Part shown: positions 35,095 through 46,175 of the stretch, in pieces | Position numbering within the stretch: the stretch's first letter is position 1 | Layout: every line of letters starts with the position of its first letter | Assembly (NCBI GenBank): GCA_024278935.1 | Contig: JAJRSF010000041.1 | Coordinates: forward strand, 1 to 64,000 | Length of the DNA: 64,000 bases | Origin: Candidatus Zixiibacteriota bacterium | GTDB lineage: Bacteria > Zixibacteria > MSB-5A5 > GN15 > FEB-12 | Direction of reading: 5' to 3' | The notes under the pieces: generated by a model | The model's input: only the letters and a program-made list of their open reading frames with translations | Told to the model about the DNA's origin: nothing | Databases searched by the model: none | Made by a program: the position numbers and the translations under genes

Positions 35095-37539
35095 GTGCCA
35101 TTAAAAGATCCAGTTTGTAATATGAATGTTGAGGAGTCATCTAAATTTTCTGCCATACATGAAAATTCTACCTACTATTTTTGTAGTCAAACGTGTTTAG
35201 ATAAATTTAAAGATAATCCGAATAAATATCTTGAACCGCATAAAGCTGATCACAGCTGCTGTAATGCTTCTACAGAGAAAAAAGAAGAGTCTCACAATAG
35301 CAATGCAGGTAAATATACTTGCCCGATGCATCCTGAAGTTGAATCAGACTCTCCCGGTGACTGCCCTAAATGCGGAATGGCATTAGAATCTCTTACTCCA
35401 ATTTTAGCTTCTGAAAAAACAGAATATACTTGTCCGATGCATCCTGAAATTATACAAGATGAACCAGGAAGTTGTCCTATTTGTGGTATGGCATTAGAGT
35501 CACGAACTGTAACCGTTGAAGAAGATAATACAGAACTAAAGATAATGACCAAGAGGTTTTGGGTAGGTGCAGTATTATCTATTCCATTATTGGTCATTTC
35601 GATGGGTGGTCTTATTCCGGCTGTTCATAACTGGTTGCAATCTATCGCATCAAATACTGTTCTTACTTGGTTAGAATTAATATTAGCAACCCCTGTTGTT
35701 CTTTGGGGAGGCTGGCCGTTTTTTGTTAGAGGATGGCAGTCTGTTGTAAATAGAAGTCCGAACATGTTTACTCTGATAGGACTTGGTACGGGTGTCGCTT
35801 ATATTTATAGTCTCATAGCAGTATTGATTCCTGAAATATTTCCCGATGCTTTTCGTGATAAATCTGGGATAGTGGCAGTCTATTTTGAAGCAGCGGCAGT
35901 AATTGTTACTCTGGTTCTACTTGGACAGGTGCTTGAACTCAAAGCAAGAAGCCAAACAGGAGCAGCTATCAAAGCACTGCTTGGATTGGCACCTAAAACT
36001 GCAAAACGTATCAATGATGACGGTTCAGAAGAAGACGTACCTATTGATCAAATAAAAATTGGTGATAAACTTCGAGTACGTCCAGGGGAAAAAGTACCTA
36101 TCGACGGAATAGTTGTTGAAGGAAGTAGTTTAGTTGATGAAGCAATGATAACTGGCGAACCAATACCTGTTGAGAAAACAGAAGGCGATAAAGTTATCGG
36201 GGCTACCGTCAATAGTACAGGCTCTTTGATAATTAAAGCAGAAAAAATAGGTGCTGATACTTTGCTTTCTCAAATAGTACAAATGGTTGCTGATGCTCAA
36301 AGAAGTAAAGCACCAATTCAAAAATTAGCCGACCAGGTTGCAGGATATTTTGTTCCGGCGGTTATTGCTATTGCCGTATTAACTTTTATTGTATGGGCTA
36401 CGGTAGGTCCCGATCCTAAATTGGCTTATGCTCTTATTAGTGCTGTTGCTGTACTTATTATAGCTTGTCCATGTGCTTTAGGTTTAGCAACTCCAATGTC
36501 AATTATGGTTGCTACAGGACGAGGAGCGTCTCTTGGTGTGCTGTTTAAAAATGCCGAGGCAATCGAAACTCTAAGAAAAGTTGATTTACTGGTCGTTGAC
36601 AAAACAGGAACATTAACTGAAGGTAAACCTACTTTAATGAAAGTTCATTCTATCGGGTCATGGAATGATGATGAAGTTTTAAGGTTCGCAGCAAGTCTTG
36701 AAAAGGGGAGTGAACATCCTTTAGCTGATGCTATTGTCAAAGGTGCATTGAAGAAAGATTTACAATTAACAAAAGCCGATGATTTTGAATCAATTACTGG
36801 CAAAGGGGTTGTAGGTAAAGTTGAGAATAGAATAATTGCGTTGGGAAACAAATCTCTTTTTCAAAGCCTGAATATTGACATAACCAATCTTCATGAACAA
36901 GCCAATTCCTTGCGGAATGAAGGACAGACAGTCATGTATGTAGCAGTTGACAATAAAGTTGCTGGACTTATTGGTGTTGCTGATCCAATTAAAGAAACTT
37001 CACAAGACGCAATTAAGCTGCTTCACGATGAAAATATAAAAGTTGTCATGTTAACAGGAGACAATAAAGCAACTGCTGACGTTGTAGCAAGACAATTAGA
37101 GATTGATGAAGTAATTGCTGAAGTGCTACCACATCAAAAAGCAGAAGCAGTGAAACATTTCCAAGAAAAAGGATATTTTGTTGCAATGGCAGGTGATGGC
37201 ATAAACGATGCTCCTGCTTTAGCGCAAGCAGAAGTCGGAATTGCGATGGGAACAGGTACTGATGTTGCCATGGAATCAGCTGGAGTCACTCTTATTAAAG
37301 GTGACATAAGAGGAATTGTACGAGCTCGCCAATTAAGCCGTTTAACTATTAAAAATATAAAACAGAATCTCTTTTTAGCTTTTATATATAATTCTTTGGG
37401 TGTACCAGTTGCCGCTGGAATACTGTATCCGTTTTTTGGGTTACTTTTAAGTCCGATGCTTGCAGCAGCAGCAATGAGTCTCAGTTCTCTTTCTGTTATC
37501 TCGAATGCATTACGACTAAAGAAAAGTAAGTTGTATTAA
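35095..37539 (+). CDS. copA: Copper-type P1B ATPase with YHS and two heavy-metal-binding domains
   Basis: The protein has 814 residues from a GTG start with AAGGAG upstream. The N-terminus has a YHS domain ([14 protein letters not shown] ... YFCSQTC) and two copies of the TCPMHPE...CPxCGMALES motif instead of classical CxxC ferredoxin-like domains. The ATPase core is complete: TGEP, the CPC metal site in [22 protein letters not shown] with the phosphorylated Asp, [10 protein letters not shown], and [19 protein letters not shown] plus conserved membrane residues indicates Cu(I)/Ag(I) export from the cytoplasm. It is the last gene after the second sigma54 promoter and may be co-transcribed with the ECF and pseudokinase genes. 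Confidence 0.93.
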
Positions 37540-37575: not shown

Positions 37576-38556
37576 TTAATCAAAAATACTTTTATCTTCG
37601 GTATGAGAATGTGGTTTTGTTTTATGACCAAATAAAGTCAGTCCAAAATTCAGACCAAATCTCAGATTCCATTTCTCCGTCAATTGTATACCTTGCACAT
37701 ATTGATATAAAGGAACATCTACTTCAGACCAAAACCGAATAGCTTTCTCACCTTCTCCAAATAATACTTTTGAAAATCCGGGTGTGAAATATATATAATC
37801 ACCTCCGCTGTTTACAAAAGTTACATCATTAAAAAAATCCTGTTCGCGATTAATAAATTTAATTTGAGAATTAAGATTGTATGATGCTCCGACTGGGGCA
37901 TAGGTGACATTGAACCCATAAGAATATAAATCTCCGATTTTTGTACGGTTGTCATCATAAGATAGAATCTGACGCGTATAGAATCGAGTATCAAATGACC
38001 ATCCTGGCTTAATCATTATGGCAGAGATCAAACTTACAATCGGGTCAAAAGTACCACTGGCAAAATTCTTCTCATCGGTTATAACATTAGTGATACCGTT
38101 CCCTGTTGGAATTGTTGAGCCAATTGAGAACTGAATATTTGTCGGTTTTGAGAACAGACGAGGGGAAGAAAAATGTCTGAATAAAAGAGAAATATCGCCT
38201 ACATTCGTTTCCCGTGTATCCAAATTTAGGTTCACTGAACGATTGATAATAATAGGCAACGATAAAGATATGCTCATTTTGTTAGAGATACCTACATTAG
38301 CAGAACTGCTTATAATGTGAGATTCTGTCTTTTGCTCTAACAAATCGACTATACTTTTTTTGCCTTGTCTTAATTGGTCTCTACGAGAAAAACTATAACT
38401 AATCCCAAGCTGTAAATCACCTTTATGAATAATAGAGGTTTCAGATCTGCCGACCGGCAGATTAGGTGAAGATCAAAGAGCTCATTGAGCAGATAAATCT
38501 TTTGAAAACAGCAACATCGCAATAATAAGAGATATTTGTGTATAATGTTTTTTCAT
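37576..38556 (-). CDS. Outer-membrane transporter-like protein of the mer operon with two in-frame UGA codons (candidate selenoprotein)
   Basis: ATG 38556 lies two bases after the merP-like stop, with AAAGGA in the end of that gene. Translation gives a signal peptide (MKKHYTQISLIIAMLLFSKD then LSAQ), UGA at codon 25 (38484-38482), Ala-Leu, UGA at codon 28 (38475-38473), then SSPNLPVGRSETS and a continuous frame to the TAA at 37576, 326 residues in all. The body is beta-strand-rich (LGISYSF, FSIGSTIPTGNG, YIYFTPGFSKVLFG) like porin-type transporter proteins, with a His-containing tail. A hairpin 10 nt after the second UGA resembles a bacterial SECIS. Read as selenocysteine, the mature N-terminus has a UxxU motif. 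The alternative is a pseudogene with two nonsense codons, restarting at the TTG near 38343. Confidence 0.6.
38445..38462 (-). promoter_or_regulatory. SECIS-like hairpin downstream of the two UGA codons
   Basis: On the minus strand AUCUGCC (38462-38456) pairs perfectly with GGCAGAU (38451-38445) around the loop GGUC (38455-38452). The loop begins 17 nt after the second UGA and 26 nt after the first. Bacterial SECIS elements lie within the reading frame, with a small G-containing apical loop about 16-37 nt after UGA. The E. coli fdhF element presents GGUCU about 18 nt after its UGA. Seen: hairpin, loop and distances. Function is inferred. Confidence 0.55.
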
Positions 38557-38558
38557 GT

Positions 38559-38774
38559 TTATCCTTTTTGTTTAGCTTTGAATCCGGCAGTTTCTATTGT
38601 TGTAATAATTGTATCAACAGAAGTATCATCTTTGATTTCTATTGTAGCTTCTTTATTTTGAAACGAGACATCTGCCTTAATTCCTGGTAGTGTACTTAAG
38701 AACTTTTTAATTGTTGCTGCACAATGGTCACAGGTCATACCTGTAATTTCTAATGTTATTTTTTCGTTACTCAT
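38559..38774 (-). CDS. MerP-like heavy-metal-associated (HMA) protein
   Basis: The protein is a 71-residue single HMA domain with the metal-binding motif GMTCDHCA near residue 13. There is no signal peptide, so as written it is cytoplasmic, unlike classical periplasmic MerP. It is part of the minus-strand operon headed by merR, and GAGGAA precedes the ATG. It probably passes Hg(II) or another soft metal between the membrane protein and a target. A copper chaperone (CopZ-like) is an alternative, but the operon favours mercury. Confidence 0.85.
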   Translation of the reverse strand: MSNEKITLEITGMTCDHCAATIKKFLSTLPGIKADVSFQNKEATIEIKDDTSVDTIITTIETAGFKAKQKG

Positions 38775-38843: not shown

Positions 38844-39254
38844 TCAGTTTTCACAATTCGGACAATTACTATCTATTATAGTCGTACTATTTTTGTTATT
38901 ATTTTTTTCAGGGATATTATTCCAAACCGATGCTATTATCAAAAGAACTGCACCTGTGTAAAAAATATATTCGGATAACGAATAATATTTTCCTGCTAAA
39001 ATAATTGCTGCTCCTATAAGACCTATTATAAATGGGGCATACCCTCTTCTCGTTTTTGCTTTGTATCCCAAACTAAAGAGTGAAATGCTTAATAAAATTC
39101 CGATAAAGAGATAAAAATATGGTCCGGTCATTAAAAAACCTAAACCGAGCGATGAGAGTATCCCCGCATAAATTGGCCAACAAGCCGGACAAGTAGCGTT
39201 CGGAAGTAGTGCGGCTCCTATTCCTGGGAGAGCTATAAGTATTCTTTTAAGCAT
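38844..39254 (-). CDS. MerC-like small membrane protein
   Basis: The protein has 136 residues with four predicted membrane segments and NATCPACWPIYAGILSSLGL in the first, a CxxC within the membrane as in MerC/MerT-type mercury importers. A second pair, NCPNCEN, is at the very C-terminus, facing the cytoplasm if the count of segments is right. ATG 39254 is one base from the stop of the thioredoxin-like gene. Assignment as a Hg(II) uptake protein rests on the cysteines and the operon; I cannot place it firmly in MerC, MerT or MerF. Confidence 0.7.
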   Translation of the reverse strand: MLKRILIALPGIGAALLPNATCPACWPIYAGILSSLGLGFLMTGPYFYLFIGILLSISLFSLGYKAKTRRGYAPFIIGLIGAAIILAGKYYSLSEYIFYTGAVLLIIASVWNNIPEKNNNKNSTTIIDSNCPNCEN

Positions 39255-39255
39255 T

Positions 39256-39573
39256 TTAATTTCCTTTCGCTTTTGACAAATTCCGTTGAATTAATCCCTT
39301 CGATGGAAAGCCTTCCATGACATCACCATTTTTGTATCGACGACATCTCATTGAATATTCTGTCAATTCATCTTCATCAATTTCAAGGTCTTTGTTATTT
39401 ATTCTAATAGATGGAGAGCCAAGAAAACGATATTTCGATGCATCTTCAGGGCTTTCAACATTATAAATTTTAATGTCTGCTTGTATTCCAAATTCTGAAA
39501 GAGATTCTTTAAGGTTTGATAAAGCAATTTCATGATTTGGACATCCCTCAAAATATAAAAATTCGATATACAT
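39256..39573 (-). CDS. Small thioredoxin-fold protein of the mer operon
   Basis: ATG 39573 has AAAGGAG six bases upstream and is preferred over the start at 39600, which would overlap merR; this gives 105 residues. The pattern IEFLYFEGCPNHE with one active-site Cys, followed by LGSPSIRINNKDLE containing the cis-Pro-like site, is typical of a thioredoxin-like family often found in mer and alkylmercury operons. A CRRY near the end adds another Cys. It probably binds or transfers Hg(II) or reduces the membrane protein's cysteines. No mercuric reductase gene follows. Confidence 0.75.
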   Translation of the reverse strand: MYIEFLYFEGCPNHEIALSNLKESLSEFGIQADIKIYNVESPEDASKYRFLGSPSIRINNKDLEIDEDELTEYSMRCRRYKNGDVMEGFPSKGLIQRNLSKAKGN

Positions 39574-39574
39574 A

Positions 39575-39997
39575 TTACACTCCTTTAGACAGTGATTCAA
39601 TTATAGGACAATTTTTAATAGTCGTAGCTGTCTGACATTCTGTAACAAGTTTTGATAGAGTCTTTTTTAATTTTGTAAGTTTTTTTATTTGATCAGTGAT
39701 ATATTCTATTTTACTTTCAGCAATTTTTCTCACATCACAGCATTTGTATATTTCACCATCTGCGACTGCCAATAATTCTTTTATTTCTGACAATGAAAAT
39801 CCAAGTTCTTTAGCGTTTTTAATAAACAGAAGACGTTCTAAATCAGATTGAGTATATTGTCGATATCCACCACCAGTTCTTTCAGGCTCTAGCAGTAATC
39901 CTTTTTTTTCATAAAAACGTATTGTTTCTTTATTCAGTTCAGCTTTTTGGGCTAATTCACTTGTTTTCAAAATATCTGATTTCACATCATTCTCCAA
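39575..39997 (-). CDS. merR: MerR mercury-responsive regulator
   Basis: The protein has 140 residues. The MerR-family winged helix has ETIRFYEKKGLL and GGGYRQYTQSDLERL, followed by a dimerisation coiled coil. The three Hg(II)-binding cysteines of mercury MerR align well: YKCC near residue 88, the TEC near 120 and the NCPIIESL near 129. This separates it from CueR, ZntR and other relatives. It heads the minus-strand operon, and a perfect dyad lies in its own promoter. It should repress without Hg(II) and activate with it. Confidence 0.92.
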   Translation of the reverse strand: MENDVKSDILKTSELAQKAELNKETIRFYEKKGLLLEPERTGGGYRQYTQSDLERLLFIKNAKELGFSLSEIKELLAVADGEIYKCCDVRKIAESKIEYITDQIKKLTKLKKTLSKLVTECQTATTIKNCPIIESLSKGV

Positions 39998-40006
39998 TTC
40001 TATATT

Positions 40007-40040
40007 ATTATACAGCCTGTACTATACTACAGGGTTTCAA
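40007..40040 (-). promoter_or_regulatory. MerR-type operator/promoter of the mer operon
   Basis: CCTGTA-CTATAC-TACAGG (40016-40033) is a perfect dyad. On the minus strand TTGAAA (40040-40035) lies just before it and TGTATAAT just after it, giving a spacer of 20-22 bp. A stretched spacer holding the dyad is the hallmark of promoters that MerR proteins activate by DNA distortion. It lies directly upstream of merR itself. Confidence 0.75.
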
Positions 40041-40740: not shown

Positions 40741-41985
40741 ATGAAAGGAATAATGTACATATTATTTCTGTTGTGTTTGTCAATATGTTTTTCTACCGTC
40801 ATTAGTGCTAATGATAGGTGGCAAAGCGGACTTGATACTACTATGACACCCAAATCGATTCATTCGATAATGTCGCTTGATGATGTATTAGCTCTTGTAG
40901 CTACTCACAATCCATCACTTCGTTCATTGGGGTATAAGCGTGAAGCAGCCAATAATCGACTTCTGCAGGCAGGGCTAAGACCCAATCCAGAATTTTCGAC
41001 TGAATTTGAAGAAGTTGGATGGGATGCTCCTGGGTTATCAGAATCAGAGATAACAATATCTTTGTCTCAAGAGTTTGAATTTTTTGGACAACGAAATGCT
41101 CGTAAACAAATAGCATTAACAGATATTAAAACAACAGAGTTTGAAAACAGGTTAGCAGCTTTTGATCTGTACTTAGATACCAAAAGCCGTTTTAACAAAG
41201 TTCTTTACTTCCAAAGAAAGTCAGAGCTTGTAGACTCATCTGTGAATACAGCTGAACATATTTTTAAAAGTATAGAAAATAGGATGAAGCAGGGTGTCGC
41301 ATTGCAATCAGAACTACTTCTTTCTGAGCTTGAATTACAACGATTCATACTTGATAGAGAAGAAACATTGCAAGAACTTCATAGTGCCCAATTAGAATTA
41401 ATGGCACTTTGGCATGGTAAAACAGAACACATACAAGTAACAGCTTCTGATGAACCTAATTTTGAGAGCGTTATTACAAAACTACCAAACTTATTGCTTC
41501 AAATAGATTCTACAAGAAATGTGTTATTGTCTAATTATGAAATGGAAAGAACAGATGCTGAAAAATATTTAGCATCAGTAGAAACCAAACCCGGGATTAC
41601 TTTCAGTGGTGGGTATAAGAGAATTGAAGCAAATAATTCAAATTCACTTTTATTTGGTATATCTCTTCCATTACCTCTTTTCAATAAAAACGAAGGGAAA
41701 ACAGCCGCATTAGATGCAACAATTCGTGCTTTAGAATATGATAAAGAAAGAACTCGGTTAGAAACTAAAGCGTATATCAATTCTGCAATTACAAGACTGA
41801 ATCAATTGGTAAGTAAGCACAAGACCATAGATAACTTGTTATTACCTACAGCAAAGAATGCGTATGAATCTCTTAAGAAAACTTACAATGTAGGAAGAAT
41901 TCCATATACAAGTTTACTTGAAGCTGAACGTTCACTCAATCAATTAAGATTTGATCACAATGATGTCTTATTTGCAATTTACTAA
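40741..41985 (+). CDS. TolC-family outer-membrane efflux channel (CzcC type), second set
   Basis: The protein has 414 residues with a signal peptide (cleavage near VISAND) and the two-repeat outer-membrane efflux architecture. LVATHNPSLRSLGYKREAANNRLLQAG starts the first repeat, and SLKKTYNVGRIPYTSLLEAERSL is the second coiled-coil signature. ATG with GGAG upstream. It starts the second efflux operon and should pair with the adaptor and pump that follow. It is only distantly similar to the first TolC gene, so the two sets were probably acquired separately. Confidence 0.9.
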   Translation: MKGIMYILFLLCLSICFSTVISANDRWQSGLDTTMTPKSIHSIMSLDDVLALVATHNPSLRSLGYKREAANNRLLQAGLRPNPEFSTEFEEVGWDAPGLSESEITISLSQEFEFFGQRNARKQIALTDIKTTEFENRLAAFDLYLDTKSRFNKVLYFQRKSELVDSSVNTAEHIFKSIENRMKQGVALQSELLLSELELQRFILDREETLQELHSAQLELMALWHGKTEHIQVTASDEPNFESVITKLPNLLLQIDSTRNVLLSNYEMERTDAEKYLASVETKPGITFSGGYKRIEANNSNSLLFGISLPLPLFNKNEGKTAALDATIRALEYDKERTRLETKAYINSAITRLNQLVSKHKTIDNLLLPTAKNAYESLKKTYNVGRIPYTSLLEAERSLNQLRFDHNDVLFAIY

Positions 41986-42053
41986 CAACTAATCTTACTT
42001 GAACAGGTTAGTGGAATTGGATTGTACTAATGAAACTACAGGAAGAAAATAAA

Positions 42054-43031
42054 ATGAAATTAATATGTATGTATATGTTTATGGCATTATTGATAATTAC
42101 TCCAACTATTTCAATTGCCGGCGATGGCCATGCCCATGATGACCATGAAGAAGAATCAACCAAAGTAAAACATGATGACCATGGTGATGAAGACGAGCAT
42201 GAAGATAAAAAATTTGTAGAAATGTCTTCAGAAGAGTTAGCTGAATTTGGAGTTGAACTAAGCACGGTTGGTCCTGGTGTTATTCATAATGAAATAGTTG
42301 TTCCCGGAGAAATCTCTGTAAATCGAAATTCACTGGCTCATATCACGCCTCGCTTTACAGGTATGATTACAGAGGTGCGAGCAAATATTGGCGATAAAGT
42401 TAATCGAGGTGATATCCTTGCGGTTGTCGAAAGTAACGAAAGTTTAACACCTTATAATGTAAAATCATTGATTAGCGGAATGGTAATAGACAAACATGCA
42501 ACAATTGGAGAAGTGTTAACAGATGATGTTCCAGCATTTCTGGTTGCTAACCTTGATACTGTGTGGGTAAATCTATCTATTTATCAAATGTATCTGCCTC
42601 TTGTAAAGATTGGACAACGGGTTGTTGTCGCCCTTGGGCATGGCCAAGAGTCACAGGAAGGGACAATAAGTTATATTTCTCCTTTAGTCGACGAGCATAC
42701 AAGAACAGCTACTGCTCGTGTGGTGCTTGACAATAAATCAGGTGATTGGCGTCCTGGCTTATTGATTGAAGGAATACTCACGACAGAAATTACTGAAGTC
42801 TCGATGGTAATTCCAAAAACTGCGTTACAACAAATCGAGGGTACTGATGTAGTATTTGTAAAAACAGAAGAAGGGTTTGCTCCAAAAGCTGTAGTTATGG
42901 GACTTGTAAATCATACTTCTGTTGAAATTATCCACGGATTAGAACAAGGTCAGACTTACGTAAGTAAAGGCGGTTTTACTCTTAAATCAGAATTACAAAA
43001 AGGTTCGTTTGGCGAAGGCCATTCGCATTAA
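42054..43031 (+). CDS. RND periplasmic adaptor (CzcB/CusB type) with His/Asp-rich N-terminus
   Basis: ATG 42054 (CAGGAAG upstream, clean signal peptide) is preferred over 42030, giving 325 residues. After the signal comes a His/Asp/Glu-rich stretch (GHAHDDHEEESTKVKHDDHG). The HlyD-type lipoyl-like and barrel domains follow (GFTGMI-like PRFTGMITEVRANIGDKVNRG; VNLSIYQMYLPLVKIG). The C-terminus is His-rich (GEGHSH). It joins the RND pump to the TolC channel, and the histidines suggest a borderline metal such as zinc, cobalt or cadmium. Confidence 0.9.
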   Translation: MKLICMYMFMALLIITPTISIAGDGHAHDDHEEESTKVKHDDHGDEDEHEDKKFVEMSSEELAEFGVELSTVGPGVIHNEIVVPGEISVNRNSLAHITPRFTGMITEVRANIGDKVNRGDILAVVESNESLTPYNVKSLISGMVIDKHATIGEVLTDDVPAFLVANLDTVWVNLSIYQMYLPLVKIGQRVVVALGHGQESQEGTISYISPLVDEHTRTATARVVLDNKSGDWRPGLLIEGILTTEITEVSMVIPKTALQQIEGTDVVFVKTEEGFAPKAVVMGLVNHTSVEIIHGLEQGQTYVSKGGFTLKSELQKGSFGEGHSH

Positions 43032-43046
43032 ATTGAGAGGAATATC

Positions 43047-46000
43047 ATGTTTGAAAAATTAACAGATTTTGCACTCAAGAACCGTCTATTAATTCTTGTT
43101 TTGGGTGTCTTGACAATTGTTGCAGGATATTATAGTTATAACAAATTACCGATAGATGCATTTCCTGATGTTTCACCTAACCTTGTGCAGGTTTTTACCG
43201 TTACCGAGGGATTAGCACCAGAAGAAATCGAAAAGTATGTAACATACCCGGTTGAAACCGCTATGAACGGTCTACCGGGTATTACAAAGATTCGATCAGT
43301 ATCAAACTTTGGGCTTTCAGTTGTAAATGTCTACTTTGAAGATGATTTAGATATTTATTTCACTCGAAGATTAGTAAATGAACGTCTGCAAGAAGCAAGA
43401 GAACAAATTCCTGAAGGCTTCGGCGAACCAGCTATGGGACCTATTTCAACAGGGATGGGGTTAATACTCTTTTACTATCTTGAGGATACAACCGGTACAT
43501 ATAGTTTTGAGGAACTTCGTTCTATTCAGGATTGGATAGTGAAGTTTAACTTACAAACTGTACCTGGTGTAACAGAGGTGTTGGGTATAGGAGGATATGA
43601 AAAACAATTTCAAGTTATCCTTCATCCAGAACGTCTTTTAAGATATGACGTTTCATTACCTGAATTCATCGAAACAATAAAAGCAAATAATCTCAATGTT
43701 GGAGCACAATTTCTTGAGAAGAATGCTGAAGAGTTTATTGTTCGTTCAGTTGGACTAGTAACGACACTTGAGGATATTGAAAATATCGTTATAAAAACAG
43801 AAGACGGAACTCCGATTTATCTGAATCAAATAGCTGATGTTGTAGTTGGGGGAGCTATTCGTCGAGGCTTACAGACGCACGATGGAATTGAAGAAATTGT
43901 CTCTGGGCAGGTTGTAAAACTGTACGGAACAAATTCATCTACTGTCATTGGTCGAGTGGAACAGAAGATGGAGGAAATAAATAAGACTCTTCCTGAAGGT
44001 ATCCGTCTTGTACCTTACTATGAACAAAAAAGTTTAGTTGTTGCCGCTGTATCAACTGTAACAAACGCCTTGGTCTATGGTATCGGACTCGTAGTACTTG
44101 TTCTCTTAATTTTCATGGGTGGAATCCGCCCATCGGTGGTGGTTGCATTGGCAATACCTTTTTCAGTTTTATTCGCTGCTATTCTTATGCGACAAGCTGA
44201 TTTGTCTGCGAATCTGATGTCGTTAGGAGGACTGGCAATAGCCATTGGAATGCTTGTCGATGGGACAATCGTGATTGTTGAAAACATTGAGAGAATGTTC
44301 AATGAAGCAGACCCAGATGAATCTAAAATGCATATTATCGCACGTGCATGTGCAGAGGTCGGAAGACCGATTATATTTGCTATCGCAATTGTTATCGTTG
44401 TTTTTATTCCTTTGTTTACTTTGCAAGGGGTAGAAGGAAAAACTTTTGGACCTTTGGCGTACACAGTTGCATTTGCAATGCTTGGTTCATTGTTATTTGC
44501 AATATTCTTTTCCCCCGTTCTTGCATCTTTTTTAATGAAAAGGAAAAAGAAAAAAAGTGGTGATCAAAACAATTCTGGCGAAACAGGATTGATGAAATGG
44601 TTATTGATGATTTATCGGCCAATTATTAAATTCTTTGTAGCAAGACGATCTGTTGCTGTCGGAATATCGGTTTTGTTATTGGTTATCGGTGCTGTTATTT
44701 TTCCTCAACTTGGTTCTGAGTTTACACCGAAACTTCAGGAGGGAACTATTGTTTTAAGACTTACAATGGCTCCTTCAATAGCACTTACTGAATCTACTCG
44801 CATAGCATTAATCGTTGAAAGACGTCTCATGAAAGTAGATGAGATTACTGGAGTAGTTACTCGAATAGGTCGTGGTGAAGTTGGTGCTCATACTGATCCT
44901 GTAAATTCTGCTGAGATGTATATCTTATTAAAAGAACCAGATGAATGGACGCATGGATCGAATCAAGAAGAACTTCAGGATTATATACGTGATGAGTTAG
45001 GTGAAATCCCTGGAGTTGCAACGAACTTTACTCAGCCGATTGAAATGACAGTAGATGAACTTCTTGAAGGTATTAGAGCAGAACTTGCTATTAAACTTTT
45101 TGGTGATGATTTAAATGTTTTAAAAGAAGAAGCAGATAAGATAGCTTCAGTAATCGGTGAAGTACAAGGAGCTGCTGATGTGCAGGTTGATCAAATTTCT
45201 GGTACTCCTCAACTTCTAATTAATATTGATCGTCACGCTATTGCTCGTCATGGAATTAACGTTGAAGATGTGCAGGAGACAATTCAAGCCGCAGTTGGTG
45301 GTGCAACGGCGGGACAACTCTTTGAAGGGATCAAAAGATTTGATATTCTGGTTCGGTATCACGAAGAACACCGCAGTACACCTGAGCAAATAGGTAATAT
45401 CCTTGTGCAAACACCAGCAGGGGCTTGGGTACCTCTTCAACAATTGGTAACCATGGAAGAAATAGTTGGACCTCGTCAAATTACTCGTGAGGATAACCAA
45501 CGATTTATTACAATTCAATGTAATGTAATAGAACGTGATATTGGATCATTTGTTACCGAGGCTCAAAAAGCGATTGATGATCAACTTGAGTTACCAAGTG
45601 GATATCTGGTTAAATGGGGTGGTCAGTATAGACTTCAACAGGAAGCAAACAAACGATTTGCAGTCGTAATTCCTGCTACGCTGTTATTAGTTTTTCTTAT
45701 GCTTTTTTCAAGTTTTAATTCTCTGAAAAATTCATTATTAATTCTTTTAAATATCCCGCTTGCTCTTGTTGGGGGAGTTGTGGGGCTTTGGATTACCGGA
45801 GAAAATCTCTCTGTTCCAGCATCGGTAGGATTTATCGCTCTGTTTGGTATTGCATTAGGAAACGGTATGGTACTTGTAACATATCTGAACCAATTGATTA
45901 GGGACGGTCTGTCCTATGATGAAGCCGCTATTAAAGGTGCAAGTCTCAGGCTTCGAGCTGTTTTAATGACAGCGATGACTACAGGTCTCGGATTAACTCC

Positions 46001-46175
46001 TCTTATCTTTTCTAACGGGATGGGCTCAGAAGTACAACGCCCGTTAGCTATTGTAGTTGTAGGAGGCTTAATAACTTCAACTATATTAACTTTACTTGTC
46101 ATACCGTCAATTTATCGATGGTTCTCTGTAGCACCAGTTAAAGCTGTAAGCACAGTAACAAAGGAGATAAAATAA
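43047..46175 (+). CDS. czcA: Heavy-metal efflux RND pump (CzcA type)
   Basis: The protein has 1042 residues, normal for the HME-RND family. Marks include LPIDAFPDVSPNLVQVFT near the N-terminus, AIAIGMLVDGTIVIVENIERM in the membrane domain, GSEFTPKLQEGTI, and FGIALGNGMVLVTYL in the second half. GMLVDGTIV with Asp is the proton-relay type of Zn/Co/Cd pumps, in contrast to the shorter motif of the Cus-type pump at 27485. It starts 15 bp after the adaptor. Zn/Co/Cd specificity is inferred. Confidence 0.92.
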   Translation: MFEKLTDFALKNRLLILVLGVLTIVAGYYSYNKLPIDAFPDVSPNLVQVFTVTEGLAPEEIEKYVTYPVETAMNGLPGITKIRSVSNFGLSVVNVYFEDDLDIYFTRRLVNERLQEAREQIPEGFGEPAMGPISTGMGLILFYYLEDTTGTYSFEELRSIQDWIVKFNLQTVPGVTEVLGIGGYEKQFQVILHPERLLRYDVSLPEFIETIKANNLNVGAQFLEKNAEEFIVRSVGLVTTLEDIENIVIKTEDGTPIYLNQIADVVVGGAIRRGLQTHDGIEEIVSGQVVKLYGTNSSTVIGRVEQKMEEINKTLPEGIRLVPYYEQKSLVVAAVSTVTNALVYGIGLVVLVLLIFMGGIRPSVVVALAIPFSVLFAAILMRQADLSANLMSLGGLAIAIGMLVDGTIVIVENIERMFNEADPDESKMHIIARACAEVGRPIIFAIAIVIVVFIPLFTLQGVEGKTFGPLAYTVAFAMLGSLLFAIFFSPVLASFLMKRKKKKSGDQNNSGETGLMKWLLMIYRPIIKFFVARRSVAVGISVLLLVIGAVIFPQLGSEFTPKLQEGTIVLRLTMAPSIALTESTRIALIVERRLMKVDEITGVVTRIGRGEVGAHTDPVNSAEMYILLKEPDEWTHGSNQEELQDYIRDELGEIPGVATNFTQPIEMTVDELLEGIRAELAIKLFGDDLNVLKEEADKIASVIGEVQGAADVQVDQISGTPQLLINIDRHAIARHGINVEDVQETIQAAVGGATAGQLFEGIKRFDILVRYHEEHRSTPEQIGNILVQTPAGAWVPLQQLVTMEEIVGPRQITREDNQRFITIQCNVIERDIGSFVTEAQKAIDDQLELPSGYLVKWGGQYRLQQEANKRFAVVIPATLLLVFLMLFSSFNSLKNSLLILLNIPLALVGGVVGLWITGENLSVPASVGFIALFGIALGNGMVLVTYLNQLIRDGLSYDEAAIKGASLRLRAVLMTAMTTGLGLTPLIFSNGMGSEVQRPLAIVVVGGLITSTILTLLVIPSIYRWFSVAPVKAVSTVTKEIK

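Follow-up and report, generated by a model that had tools for sequence, protein, structure and literature searches.

Can a gene that carries two UGA codons in frame near its start, at the end of a merR-controlled operon, encode an intact outer-membrane protein with two selenocysteine (Sec) residues? The original prediction answered yes for a locus of Candidatus Zixiibacteriota, proposing a Sec-Ala-Leu-Sec motif on a β-barrel-like protein. The elements of the locus that bear on this reading, with positions counted in the whole 64,000-nucleotide stretch of DNA that was analysed (the window), are as follows.

37576 to 38556, minus strand: predicted double-Sec outer-membrane barrel gene, 326 codons, U25-A-L-U28, stop TAA
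38482 to 38484, minus strand: first in-frame UGA, codon 25, SECIS loop 26 nt further on
38473 to 38475, minus strand: second in-frame UGA, codon 28, SECIS loop 17 nt further on
38445 to 38462, minus strand: predicted bSECIS hairpin AUCUGCC-GGUC-GGCAGAU, 7-bp stem, loop at 38452 to 38455

Re-read on the minus strand, the frame from 38556 to 37576 has the described architecture, with an AAGGA ribosome-binding site, an ATG start and a signal-peptide-like N-terminus, followed by the UGAs at codons 25 and 28 and then by 298 sense codons before the TAA; the upstream HMA gene ends 2 nt before the start. Under the standard code these are two stops, and were they real, the locus would be either a pseudogene in decay or a short leader with a regulatory role, with the barrel either not made or restarted downstream. 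The earliest available restart is a TTG at codon 72, no ATG, GTG or TTG lying in between, but initiation there would remove the first barrel strand.

The alignment of homologues places UGA at both positions, at the same site, in 12 of 12 genes from 12 genomes or bins (the window gene, L003, L005, L007 to L013, the N-terminal fragment L024 and L083), and never Cys, TAA or TAG. The motif reads U-A-L-U in 11 of these genes and U-G-L-U in the remaining one. All close relatives that include the N-terminus, from whole genomes and one MAG contig, have both UGAs, and the other 11 genes share 31–86% identity with that of the window, the 86% belonging to L003 on the MAG contig. This conservation holds despite near-saturated synonymous sites in many gene pairs, and the stretch from the UGAs to codon 72 has a dN/dS of 0.04–0.17, indicating strong purifying selection. 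In the tree, the UxxU genes form one clade (support 100/98), separate from paralogues with Cys. The window comes from a single MAG, which could invite the suspicion of a sequencing or assembly error at both sites, but the same two UGAs recur in independent assemblies, and these relatives refute it; we regard such an error as scarcely credible. The recurrence of both codons in 12 genes, and purifying selection acting through them, likewise speak against real stops.

The family extends somewhat beyond these 12 genes. A search with an RNA model recovered a thirteenth, more distant barrel (L122, G064:C460:7157-7216, minus strand), which reads AA-U-A-G-U-SNPNLPVGG, has the same SECIS and sits after a gene for an HMA–thioredoxin fusion. 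A relative with a single UGA (L026/L071, G055:C15:270210-271136, plus strand), whose U aligns with the second position, keeps the SECIS (CUCCC-GGUC-GGGAG) and has a thioredoxin domain fused to its C-terminus. In genome G025 the barrel lies in two pieces, L006 (G025:C216) and L024 (G025:C68), and homology is lost after IIHKG in the N-terminal piece, owing to either a contig break or a chimera. A sample of 395 genomes from the phylum of the L003 bin contained no additional UxxU member, viral contigs and plasmids contained no close relative, and a PADLOC run returned no match.

A hairpin of the bacterial SECIS kind is located downstream of both codons. The published bSECIS model requires a stem of 4–16 bp, a loop of 3–9 nt with G in one of its first two positions, a distance of 16–37 nt from the UGA and a minimum free energy (MFE) of -7.5 kcal/mol or lower (PMC13188914). 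The barrel hairpin, with an MFE of -11.1 kcal/mol (z -2.75), satisfies all of these constraints. Across 13 sequences, 94.5% of the cells are paired, versus 24–56% with the partner slid, and two-sided changes occur at three pairs (for example, CUACC/GGUAG in L003 and CUCCC/GGGAG in L026), giving a covariation score that 0 of 500 shuffles matched. Because third bases of Leu and Gly codons change jointly, protein constraint cannot explain the pattern. The loop sequence, GGUC, is that of the E. coli fdhF SECIS. The conserved codons most frozen at the synonymous level are the two UGAs and hairpin codons 33–37, besides which there are only one Tyr and one Ile codon. This is the sole GGTC hairpin with a suitable upstream TGA within the 64-kb window, and when 132 genomes of the phylum were searched with an RNA model built on the SECIS site, all matches were members of the barrel family. 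The covarying SECIS adds to the case against real stops.

The window genome encodes the corresponding machinery, namely a tRNA-Sec with anticodon UCA and a SelB (314 bits), both intact, SelA adjoining selB (505 bits) and a SelD that itself bears Sec. In the other carriers that were searched, SelA and SelB were found in all (one SelB match being partial) and SelD above the cut-off in all but one. The expectation that selA, selB, selC and selD occur together in the window genome is thus borne out with one qualification, which is that its selA (L109, G000:C64:9741-11075) has one in-frame TGA in the assembly, at codon 324 of the match (I-TGA-E). This TGA is missing from the selA of relatives, with Leu in three of the same genus, and it may be an error of the MAG assembly, a variant of this strain or a true lesion; it bears on the capacity of the window strain itself for selenoprotein synthesis and is a point in favour of real stops. 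The 7.2-Mb bin that holds the L003 contig is without a true selA and is probably a mixed bin.

In-frame UGAs in both selD and selA could also be taken as signs of a genome-wide recoding, with UGA read as Trp or Gly, for example. UGA, however, terminates 3 of the 30 long open frames in the window, the tRNA-Sec(UCA) is present, a SECIS follows the UGAs and paralogues have Cys in this region, all of which make recoding exceedingly improbable; real stops are scarcely less so. We discarded a pseudogene, an assembly error, UGA reassignment and a leader peptide alike, in view of the conservation, the dN/dS values, the covariation of the SECIS and the frames that UGA ends in the ordinary way. Conserved UGAs, a covarying SECIS, the Sec machinery and purifying selection through the UGAs together uphold the two-Sec reading, and, judged by comparative sequence evidence, both UGAs are almost certainly decoded as selenocysteine.

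With hardly less confidence, we assign the protein to the outer membrane as a barrel of the 12-strand type in the COG4313/FapF superfamily, in agreement with its initial description as barrel-like. A profile of the barrel family matched FapF in the PDB (E=1.4e-5), the AlphaFold2 model (mean pLDDT 77.8) shows about 12 strands forming a barrel, and Foldseek searches with that model retrieved, at E values of about 1e-10, both FapF and the COG4313 channel 4rl8, with target-based TM scores of up to 0.77. In 6 of 24 barrel family members, PF13557 matches at E<0.001 (best 1.7e-10), but the window protein scores 21.1 against a gathering cut-off of 22, and we therefore file it as a fold relative rather than as a member of the Pfam family. 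The UALU motif lies among the residues ahead of strand 1. The window protein resembles the COG4313/Phenol_MetA_deg (PF13557) channel Pput2725 (4rl8) and FapF (5o65–5o68) both in its predicted barrel of about 12 strands and in its N-terminal segment before the first strand. The lumen of 4rl8 is blocked by the protein's own first 14 residues, which fold inwards (PMC4493636), and that of FapF receives a helical plug from the periplasmic side (PMC5557850). Because the N-terminal tail has a pLDDT below 50 (residues 17–39), its placement in the pore rests on analogy with these channels. Unlike the window protein, Pput2725 is not described as having an N-terminal Cys or Sec, cysteine being unmentioned in PMC4493636. 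As for processing of the tail, we tried and rejected lipidation of the Sec or Cys, there being no lipobox and Gln preceding Sec in nearly all sequences. A mature end set by the Bacteroidetes Q-rule (pyroGlu-U-A-L-U) may or may not apply, the rule being reported for Bacteroidetes and not for the whole FCB group (PMC5837995).

According to the original prediction, relatives carry Cys at this position. Distant paralogues do have Cys at the mature N-terminus, where they read QTCSCGG, QACSCGG, QNCCAP, QACC or QSCC, and their first Cys aligns with the first Sec of the UxxU barrels. The spacing is CxC or CC, however, and no CxxC relative of the UxxU clade was found. The window genome itself contains a QTCSCGG paralogue (L002/L106, G000:C38:176784-177713), and further Cys paralogues come from its own phylum and from a second one. 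These QTCSCGG and QNCC proteins are of the same family as the window barrel, with two close Cys at the mature N-terminus, and differ from it in using Cys instead of Sec and in their CxC or CC spacing. Given these paralogues with two close Cys, paired chalcogen residues appear to be a feature of the wider family, for which the UxxU clade uses selenium. The two Cys paralogue copies that were checked also differ from the window barrel in adjoining DUF3179 and not mer genes; the one in the window genome (G000:C38:176784-177713) is followed by a DUF3179 gene, and the same pair seems to be present in G036. DUF3179 is a family that includes selenoproteins.

What the Sec pair might do is suggested by the operon, in which the minus strand carries merR, a DF thioredoxin-like gene, MerC, HMA and, last, the barrel.

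40016 to 40033, minus strand: MerR-type operator dyad CCTGTA-gtatag-TACAGG, flanked by TTGAAA and TGTATA
39575 to 39997, minus strand: merR, encoding all three Cys found in MerR that senses Hg(II)
39256 to 39573, minus strand: DF-family (NF049942) thioredoxin-like protein, Cys form (FEGCPNH); ORF to 39600, ATG likely at 39573
38844 to 39254, minus strand: MerC-like inner-membrane mercury transporter
38559 to 38774, minus strand: HMA metallochaperone (GMTCDHC), MerP/CopZ-like

The best model for the window MerR is TIGR02051, at 140.9 bits versus an NCBIfam cut-off of 150.85 (CueR, 118), its three Cys align with structures of Hg MerR (PDB 4ua1 and 5crl), and the dyad upstream of merR has a long spacer. 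MerC scores 46.5 bits in Pfam against a cut-off of 27.6, and the HMA protein, with its CxxC, reaches 59.9 bits against the NF041115 cut-off of 95. The DF family has been reported to contain selenoproteins by deep-Sep (PMC12013277), and the window DF has Cys. We think that Hg(II) probably induces this operon. Across the clade, merR-led operons contain 8 of the 12 barrel genes, for the most part beside genes of mercury transport, and eight genomes or bins repeat the combination of merR, DF or another thioredoxin-like protein, MerC or a MerT/MerTP-like protein, and barrel. The other four (G061, G055, G058 and G020) lie outside mer operons, one of them with an HMA protein and an ArsC-like ORF nearby, and no MerA above the cut-off was found in the window genome (best match 306 bits versus 454). 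The assignment to a mercury operon that had been made for the window is therefore sustained by the Hg-type MerR, the operator, MerC and the merR-led setting of most members, although it does not extend to 4 of the 12 members and the window genome has no true merA.

Two observations concern the surroundings of individual members. One contig (L083/L107, G101:C17) has an operon of merR, a Trx-like gene, the UGLU barrel, Grx, a CsoR-type repressor and MerTP, in which the Grx-like ORF downstream of the barrel carries an in-frame TGA (SQPG-U-IFC, a UxxC) and would give this operon another candidate selenoprotein besides the barrel. The window itself is a heavy-metal island, as 35095-37539 and 40741-46175, both on the plus strand, hold a copper-type P-ATPase, which has YHS and HMBD domains, and an RND efflux set of the CusA/CzcA type.

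We infer a mechanism in which induction, readthrough, export and mercury capture would follow one another. Hg(II) reaching the cell would cause MerR to switch the operon on; the ribosome, with SelB and Sec-tRNA, would read both UGAs by means of the single SECIS; the protein would be exported and inserted into the outer membrane; and the selenol pair would bind Hg(II) or an organomercurial very tightly, as a trap or a gate, with the metal then handed to, or kept from, the periplasmic and inner-membrane partners (the HMA protein, MerC/MerT and the thioredoxin-like DF protein). As merA is absent, such a system would act by capture and transport and not by reduction to Hg0. Selenols bind mercury far more tightly than thiols do, and bacterial mercury handling has mainly been described as thiol chemistry.

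The full account, a MerR-induced Sec-Ala-Leu-Sec barrel of the outer membrane whose selenols trap or gate Hg(II) or organomercury, is the one that we favour, with reasonable but limited confidence; its selenoprotein part is built on the comparison of sequences, with conserved UGAs, one SECIS at a legal distance from both, an encoded Sec machinery and a clade with Cys paralogues. That the selenol pair serves as the mercury or organomercury ligand, gate or relay specifically at the periplasmic mouth of the pore, as analogy with the plugged channels suggests, has an even chance or slightly better. More tentatively, and a little short of even, the barrel may found an undescribed selenoprotein family, encoded in a mercury operon without merA, in which the plug of an outer-membrane channel bears a Sec pair that binds Hg(II) and so gates the pore or relays the metal. 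It is also possible, if on the doubtful side, that the barrel does contain two Sec but that UxxU is a redox couple forming a selenenyl bond, or a ligand of another soft metal or metalloid, with mercury only one context of the clade. The presence of DF and further thioredoxin-like proteins among the operon products would fit this, as would the UxxC glutaredoxin-like candidate after one barrel, the thioredoxin domain of the single-U relative and the four members outside mer operons, including that near the HMA protein and the ArsC-like ORF; the Hg-type MerR of the window counts against it, as do the merR-led operons in which 8 of 12 members have neighbours for mercury transport.

No NCBIfam model (release 20) matches the barrel family at E<=1, and the family is absent from a 2026 review of 119 families (PMC13188914), with Haft and Tolstoy 2025 covered as far as that review and NCBIfam release 20 represent it. 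The original prediction had gone further, in knowing of no outer-membrane selenoprotein of this kind. Two are already listed, the MtrB/PioB-like barrel GSU2204 and the TonB-dependent receptor FCYXU (PMC13188914), and novelty is therefore limited to the barrel family. Like GSU2204 (NF041027) and FCYXU (NF049945), the barrel is predicted to be an outer-membrane selenoprotein; these two, however, have one Sec each and belong to other families, and the window protein matches neither model. It also resembles the UxxU metal-binding NF041115 and the MerT/MerP/CopZ-type NF045683 in having two Sec in UxxU, or Sec in a heavy-metal transport protein (PMC13188914), and in its mercury or metal setting, whereas those are HMA or inner-membrane proteins to which the barrel is unrelated in sequence.

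If our reading is correct, a single SECIS would serve two UGAs 9 nt apart, in a gene that annotation pipelines would miscut or drop. Selenium would give the organism a natural defence against mercury at its surface, with the outer membrane as the first line, and the finding would point to a role for the vicinal cysteines at the N-termini of a widespread family of outer-membrane channels.
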